In this document: positions 28,413 to 32,632 of the stretch, one piece after another | Position numbering within the stretch: position 1 is the first letter of the stretch | Layout: every line of letters begins with the position of its first letter | Origin: Candidatus Sungiibacteriota bacterium | Lineage (GTDB): Bacteria; Patescibacteriota; Minisyncoccia; Sungbacterales; HO2-52-23 | Reading direction: 5' to 3' | DNA: 53,069 nt | Assembly (NCBI GenBank): GCA_016206285.1 | Contig: JACQRW010000016.1 | Span: 1 to 53,069 of the forward strand | Translations under genes and position numbers: made by a program | The notes under the pieces: generated by a model | Database searches by the model: none | Seen by the model: the letters and a program-made list of their open reading frames with translations, nothing else | What the model was told of the DNA's origin: nothing

Positions 28413-28462
28413 ATGGATATAGTGCGATAGTATGTATTTTCTGTCCCCCTGATTTGCCCTTA

Positions 28463-28534
28463 TGTCAGGGGTGGGGAACGATCCCACGACCTCGGCGTTA
28501 TGAGTGCCGCGCTCTACCACTGAGCTACCCTGAC
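28463..28534 (-). tRNA. tRNA-Met/Ile2 (anticodon CAT) with unusual T loop
   Basis: Acceptor GTCAGGG/CCCTGAC is fully paired, the D arm is GCTC/GAGC, the anticodon stem CGGCA/CGCCG has an A31-C39 mismatch, loop CTCATAA gives CAT, discriminator is A73, and CCA is not encoded. The T loop reads ATCGTTC, so T54 and A58 are swapped to A54 and T58. The paired 1-72 end excludes a classical initiator; elongator Met or lysidine-Ile cannot be separated by sequence alone. Confidence 0.88.
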
Positions 28535-28651
28535 ACAAAACTGTAGAGATCATACCTTATTTTTGCCTATCCGGCAAGGGATTTTTTCATTCTGAATAAA
28601 CAAGCGATGGGCACCAAGCGATTGTTGAGAACGCGAAAGAATACTCCCTTC

Positions 28652-32228: not shown

Positions 32229-32246
32229 TCAGATTCTAGATAAACC

Positions 32247-32277
32247 AAAAACCGTCCCTATATGTCGGACGGTTTTT
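32247..32277 (-). terminator. Terminator after tRNA-fMet
   Basis: AAAAACCGTCC (32247-32257) pairs with GGACGGTTTTT (32267-32277); on the minus strand it follows the tRNA and ends in a T run. Confidence 0.9.
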
Positions 32278-32290
32278 GATGCGGTATGCA

Positions 32291-32632
32291 TTGCGGGGGC
32301 CGGAATTGCACCGGCGTCTCAAGGTTCTTCTTGTACCTTTTCTTTCAAAAAGGAATGGACTATACCATCTTCCATCTTATTGTGGGTAGATAATGGAAGC
32401 TCCCATTGTAGTCTCTGAACCTTCCTTAACAAAATTCATTGTTAGGGCTTGGATGCTGATTGCCAAATCTCCTCTTTTTTTGCGCGTTCGCGGCCATCCT
32501 TTCGGATCACGCTGTAGCAAGAGAAGCTCTTATGGGTTTCCAGCAGTTTCGGGAGTTTTTCCGCGGCATGTTGCCATACCGGGTCACAGAATACTCTATG
32601 AGCCTCGCGAGGTACTTCTCCTCTACCCCGCC
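32291..32632 (-). tRNA. Initiator tRNA-fMet (CAT) split by a group I intron
   Basis: The 5' exon (32632-32598) gives G1-G7 GGCGGGG, D arm GAGG/CCTC, anticodon 5' strand CGAGG and loop CTCAT. The 3' exon (32326-32291) gives AA, CCTTG, variable AGAC, T arm GCCGG/CCGGC with loop TGCAATT, and acceptor CCCCGCA with A73. The 3' end CCGGCCCCCGCA matches bacterial initiators. Pairs 2-71 to 7-66 are Watson-Crick while 1-72 is a G-A mismatch, the expected unpaired end of an initiator. The anticodon stem joins perfectly only after removing 32327-32597. CCA is not encoded. Confidence 0.92.
32327..32597 (-). ncRNA. Group I intron (271 nt) in the tRNA-fMet anticodon loop
   Basis: It is inserted between positions 36 and 37 (CAT^AA), the site known for cyanobacterial tRNA-fMet introns. 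P1 is exon GGCTCAT with guide GTGACCC, including the U-G wobble at the splice site. A Q-like block GGCAATCAGCATCCAAG (32465-32449), an R-like block GAGACTACA (32415-32407) and an S-like block GGTATAGTCC (32366-32357) pair as P4 and P7. The last intron base is G. It has no open reading frame for a homing endonuclease, so it probably relies on self-splicing. The subgroup looks like the small tRNA-type introns (IC3-like). Confidence 0.9.

Follow-up and report, generated by a model that had tools for sequence, protein, structure and literature searches.

The window, the whole 53,069-nt stretch of Candidatus Sungiibacteriota DNA that we analysed, carries on its minus strand a tRNA-fMet gene (32291-32632) interrupted by a 271-nt group I intron. 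When run in intron mode, ARAGORN called a tRNA-Met(CAT) of 71 nt after splicing, with an intron of 271 nt (ctcat-Intron-aacct); without the intron option, it returned no tRNA at 32291-32632. The 5' exon called in this way (35 nt, 32598-32632, minus strand, GGCGGGGTAGAGGAGAAGTACCTCGCGAGGCTCAT) is identical to the same part of the intact gene of a same-genus relative, G001. The intron (32327-32597, minus strand), delimited by its Rfam match, by ARAGORN and by the empty site in G001, starts with AGAG, ends with a G at 32327, and lies between positions 36 and 37 in standard tRNA numbering (36/37). The ARAGORN-called 3' exon (36 nt, 32291-32326, minus strand, AACCTTGAGACGCCGGTGCAATTCCGGCCCCCGCAA) includes the discriminator base, does not encode CCA, and differs from the G001 gene at three positions, two of which form a compensated T-stem pair. 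The spliced tRNA reads GGCGGGGTAGAGGAGAAGTACCTCGCGAGGCTCAT-AACCTTGAGACGCCGGTGCAATTCCGGCCCCCGCAA, with the splice junction GAGGCTCAT-AACCTTGAG.

We found that G001 holds an intron-less gene at the same locus, with blastn matches extending across the sequence on either side (the gatA side and that of the downstream gene), and the intron boundaries are therefore fixed: the window tRNA aligns to G001 in two segments that abut where the intron starts and stops. A one-base overlap (A) at this junction permits two registers, only one of which, CAT/A...G/AACC, has the terminal G. The first-pass annotation had proposed that the minus strand reads as tRNA-fMet only once 271 nt following CAT are removed, and both the intron-mode call and the empty site in G001 bear this out.

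The same annotation had named the insertion a group I intron without an endonuclease gene, and both points held. Scanning Rfam with cmscan, we obtained a match to Intron_gpI (RF00028) at 32336-32607 on the minus strand that covers the full model (1-253) and scores 70.2 bits (E 7.5e-16) against a gathering cut-off of 50 bits; the 754-kb assembly yields no other group I match. The intron contains no ORF large enough for an endonuclease, the longest overlapping sense-strand ORF being one of 77 aa that starts upstream of the tRNA. The predicted fold of the 342-nt transcript was better than that of 100 of 100 shuffled sequences (z -4.75). Directly 3' of the tRNA, a hairpin followed by a run of T (32246-32278, minus strand, CAAAAACCGTCC-GACATATA-GGGACGGTTTTTG) reads as a probable intrinsic terminator, and a comparable hairpin lies downstream of the initiator gene in G001, G004 and G020. 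The automated terminator scan did not include this hairpin among its calls, and a promoter scan gave no usable call for the locus. The split gene is probably transcribed alone, in a unit that would end at the hairpin (32278-32246).

The interrupted gene as an initiator

A mismatch at 1-72 and an A11-U24 pair are marks of bacterial initiator tRNAs. The spliced tRNA has both, with G1.A72 in place of a Watson-Crick pair and A11-U24, together with the CAT anticodon, and it is thus an initiator; its anticodon stem carries A29-U41 where the first of three G-C pairs would be expected. The elongator tRNA-Met is a separate gene at 28462-28535. The tRNA also has a short D loop (AGAAGTA) that lacks GG and a TGCAATT T loop, and the initiators of its family (G001, G003, G009 and G012) likewise have a short D loop without GG and a TGCAATT T loop.

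We listed the tRNAs of the assembly (24 contigs, 754 kb, 91.4% complete) with RF00005 and with ARAGORN on single stretches. None of the 37 further ARAGORN tRNAs of this 91.4%-complete assembly is an initiator, and a genome search with the initiator 5' half returned no locus besides 32291-32632. A second, intact tRNA-fMet gene, which the first-pass annotation had counted, together with the lack of a covariance-model match, as evidence against its reading, was therefore not found in the assembly. The same 5'-half search detected no intact initiator in four other genomes with a split gene (G004, G007, G011 and G020), and its single match in G001 was the intact, syntenic gene. We conclude that the genome likely lacks a second initiator gene; because the assembly is 91.4% complete, this absence is likely rather than proven.

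Three extra tRNA-like genes were noted in the same genome: L036 (C23:14104-14175, minus), L037 (C14:22932-23003, minus) and L038 (C24:21275-21346, plus). They have the G3.U70 acceptor of a tRNA-Ala but the Ser anticodons CGA, CGA and TGA, respectively, a pyrimidine at position 37, a mismatch at 31-39, an odd T loop and weak Rfam scores (33-41 bits). Among 93 genomes searched, no other has this pattern. Their TGCAA T loop is common to them and to the initiator tRNAs of the family.

Group I fold of the intron

We aligned the window intron with nine relatives at the same tRNA position and drew the structure on the window sequence. P1 (32584-32601) pairs UCAUAG (32601-32596) with CUGUGA (32589-32584) and is paired in 10/10 introns; at the 5' splice site, it sets U36 (32598) opposite a G (32587). 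The exon segment UCAU base-pairs to the guide GTGACC, its U.G falling at the splice site, and the contiguous guide-exon pairing is short because a C.C mismatch follows the fourth exon pair. P2 (32564-32581) is a 7-bp hairpin with a GCAA loop, in which all seven pairs show changes on both sides. The 5' strand of P3 (CTCCC, 32551-32555) pairs with GGGAG (32404-32400), with 100% of cells paired and both-side changes in four of five pairs. In the P4-P5 domain (32454-32545), where P4 pairs TGCTG (32545-32541) with CAGCA (32458-32454), 96% of cells are paired and the positions are mostly invariant. P7, the guanosine-binding helix (32358-32413), pairs GACTA (32413-32409) with TAGTC (32362-32358), is 100% paired with one compensated change, and encloses both the 3' strand of P3 (32404-32400) and P8 (32398-32370). 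P8 is likewise 100% paired across the ten sequences, with both-side changes in 4/5 pairs, and P9 (32336-32353), a hairpin with a GAAA loop, has them in 5/7. All of these elements lie on the minus strand. The P3-P7 pseudoknot, together with P4 and P8, makes up a predicted group I core.

Over P1-P5 and P7-P9, the ten-intron alignment contains 42 pairs with 97.6% of cells paired, a count that is favoured by drawing the structure on the window sequence; compensatory changes are not favoured in this way. Such both-side changes occur at 23 of the 42 pairs (13.8 in shuffled alignments) and in 71 cells (21.8 in shuffled alignments), values that none of 500 shuffles reached, and slid alignments likewise fell far below the observed covariation. 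These data demonstrate that P1, P2, P3, P7, P8 and P9 are supported by covariation.

The splice sites behave similarly. The U.G pair at the 5' splice site is present in 10/10 introns, and a terminal G before AACC was found in the window intron, in eight aligned homologues and in the intron of G082. G082 carries a C at exon position 33 and a G facing it in the guide, where the other introns have U33-A; this change from U33-A to C33-G indicates covariation of exon with intron over the splice site. The P1 wobble, the P4 and P7 core blocks and the terminal G had all been pointed out from the window alone, and each recurs across the alignment. Two of the aligned genes have features of their own. 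The split initiator of G082 (L057, 1483-1702, minus) has C33 in place of the anticodon-loop U33, compensated by the guide change, and the 36/37 intron of G011 (L133, 381-689) has about 40 additional bases separating its splice site from its guide, in which an extra hairpin is possible.

Distribution and relatives

Of 384 genomes of the class, a pattern search picked out seven with the intron (reversed controls, 0), a lower bound since the census pattern misses the known members G011 and G082. These two and one UBA3527 contig provide three additional 36/37 introns, giving ten in all; the named records among the carriers are Candidatus Sungbacteria, Giovannonibacteria and Yanofskybacteria. In the window's own family, the initiator gene is split in four genomes (G000, G004, G007 and G011) and intact in seven (G001, G003, G005, G006, G008, G009 and G012), and the initiator search returned no match in two further genomes. 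Similarly, in another family, G073 has a split gene and the same-genus G093 an intact one. From these results, we conclude that the 36/37 intron is patchily present and absent between genera. Since intact and split alleles coexist within one genus and one family, it becomes possible to trace how an essential gene gains and loses an intron. The ORF-less intron may have spread by reverse splicing, by endonuclease homing in trans, or by inheritance with repeated loss.

When the split-fMet pattern was run over genome contigs, it gave 14 matches, eight of which lay outside Patescibacteria, contained no tRNA and were taken as chance (Nitrospira, Ignavibacteriae, Rhizobiales, Microvirga, Prosthecobacter, Synechococcus and Actinomadura).

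We examined 90 intron loci of the class, many of which are in tRNA-Phe, -Asn, -Thr and -Leu by isotype calls that may hold some errors, given that ARAGORN miscalled L051, L057 and L087 as tRNA-Leu through a boundary shift and exon comparison identified them as fMet. By ARAGORN, loci L040-L068 and L129-L188 include introns at 34/35 of tRNA-Phe, 35/36 of tRNA-Asn, 33/34 of tRNA-Thr and 36/37 of tRNA-Leu(CAA), and the tRNA introns of the class use almost every anticodon position.

Of 367 genomes of the cyanobacterial phylum, 16 contained a match to the intron ORF of one same-class Patescibacterium, G025. At 12 of those loci we recognised a split tRNA-fMet, in every case with CAT on the 3' exon, that is, with the intron at 33/34 (..GGGCT/...GTAAG/CATAACCC); in contrast, the window intron has CAT on the 5' exon. 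The cyanobacterial introns lie inside or beside a locus with an I-Ssp6803I-like endonuclease ORF, and this ORF is present in L067 of G025 and in several cyanobacterial copies but absent from the window intron. L067 (1434-2171, minus) is itself a 33/34 tRNA-fMet intron with an I-Ssp6803I-like PD-(D/E)XK ORF, which matched PDB 2OST (I-Ssp6803I; E 8e-60) and PF11645 (4e-48). The G025 intron likely reflects a transfer between Patescibacteria and cyanobacteria, in either direction.

A further search of the cyanobacterial phylum, for the 5' half without the following AACC, returned integrative elements in tRNA-fMet, not introns. At these loci (L090-L103), in small genomes of the phylum, DNA is integrated in the anticodon loop (GGGCTCATAAGACTC...) next to apparent integrase genes, and the initiator gene looks like their attachment site.

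The intron tree (59 introns, 167 columns) has some long branches, and its deeper branches are weak, so that their order should be read loosely. All ten 36/37 introns fell on one side of a branch with support of 100/99. Their lineage is nested with patescibacterial Asn, His, Thr and Phe introns (the consecutive branches have bootstrap values of 96, 78 and 82), and the 33/34 fMet introns fall with those of tRNA-Leu(CAA) and tRNA-Ser. A joint clade of both kinds of fMet intron was rejected (p-AU 0.0147). The window intron thus appears, from its position in the tree, to belong to an ORF-less 36/37 lineage within the patescibacterial tRNA-intron pool, and introns have entered the initiator tRNA on at least two occasions, each time at another position, with both kinds held by Patescibacteria. 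These findings go against two parts of the first-pass annotation, which had placed the intron at the same site as that of cyanobacterial tRNA-fMet and had taken it for either an old homologue at that site or a copy moved from cyanobacteria; the site differs from that of the cyanobacterial introns recovered here, and a joint clade is rejected.

A probably functional intron and its known counterparts

Our results very probably reflect a functional ORF-less group I intron at 36/37 of the organism's only detected initiator gene, from a lineage of the patescibacterial tRNA-intron pool. The precursor RNA would adopt the group I core structure; a guanosine held by P7 would attack at the U.G pair that follows CAU in P1; and the released 5' exon would in turn attack just behind the intron's terminal G, so that CAU is ligated to AACC. 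This ligation would restore the standard initiator anticodon loop, CUCAUAA. The 36/37 lineage itself would have arisen inside the patescibacterial pool and become specific to that site. Because no other initiator gene was found, it is a fair inference that every translation start in the organism depends on the intron splicing itself out.

An intron of the cyanobacterial I-Ssp6803I family, inherited or transferred and since stripped of its endonuclease, would share the same gene and the same anticodon loop, and the 33/34 intron of G025 indicates that such transfers do involve the window's class. However, the 12 cyanobacterial sequences and L067 all carry CAT on the 3' exon, the AU test rejects the joint clade, and the window lineage groups with patescibacterial Phe, Asn, Thr and His introns, which together make a cyanobacterial origin very improbable. 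We give scarcely any credence to a dead or poorly spliced intron whose work is done by a second, intact initiator in an unassembled part of the genome. The assembly, at 24 contigs and 91.4% completeness, does leave room for such a copy, and several other tRNA species were also not found. Against this, the helices are maintained through compensatory changes and the exons are intact, only split copies were detected in G004, G007, G011 and G020 as well, and the one match in G001 is intact and syntenic. We infer that a non-splicing insertion in the sole initiator gene would not persist with a maintained fold. An archaeal- or eukaryal-type tRNA splicing endonuclease is not known from bacteria. Enzymatic splicing of that type has in its favour that 36/37 is close to the canonical 37/38 position of such introns (PMC4033280), but the 271-nt length, the complete group I core and an RF00028 match above the cut-off leave it next to no chance.

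The favoured reading, a functional group I intron, contributes an intron lineage that is specific to one site of an essential, single-copy tRNA and is set apart from the classic cyanobacterial case. A bolder version, in which this lineage is specialised for 36/37, lacks an ORF and is independent of the cyanobacterial one, and in which splicing could make translation initiation subject to a guanosine-dependent check, is a long shot, and a regulatory role of splicing in initiation is speculation; if this version is true, introns have settled in the initiator gene two or more times, at different sites.

Azoarcus tRNA-Ile(CAU) and similar proteobacterial tRNA genes contain small, ORF-less group I introns in a CAU anticodon loop. 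The window intron resembles the Azoarcus intron in each of these respects, a likeness by description; the Azoarcus intron resides in another tRNA and another phylum. Proteobacterial tRNA introns of this kind have been outlined (PMC4033280). In CPR bacteria, rRNA genes carry group I introns, often with LAGLIDADG endonucleases (PMC11270868); group I introns are widespread in these same bacteria, and the window intron differs in its tRNA host and in lacking an ORF. Group I introns in patescibacterial tRNAs have already been reported, according to the title of a 2025 preprint (bioRxiv 2025.07.03.662931) in the reference list of PMC12641178, and the kind of element itself is therefore known. Those introns share the phylum and the kind of element with ours, whose sisters in the same class lie in tRNA-Phe, -Asn, -Thr, -Leu and further tRNAs; as far as the title of the preprint indicates, the difference here is the initiator tRNA as host, at 36/37. 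The tRNA-fMet intron of Synechocystis PCC 6803 is a group I intron of 655 nt that encodes I-Ssp6803I, a PD-(D/E)XK endonuclease (PMC1995217). Both it and the window intron are group I introns in the initiator anticodon loop, but the cyanobacterial intron sits at 33/34, has its endonuclease ORF inside or nearby and belongs to a separate lineage, whereas the window intron sits at 36/37 and is ORF-less.
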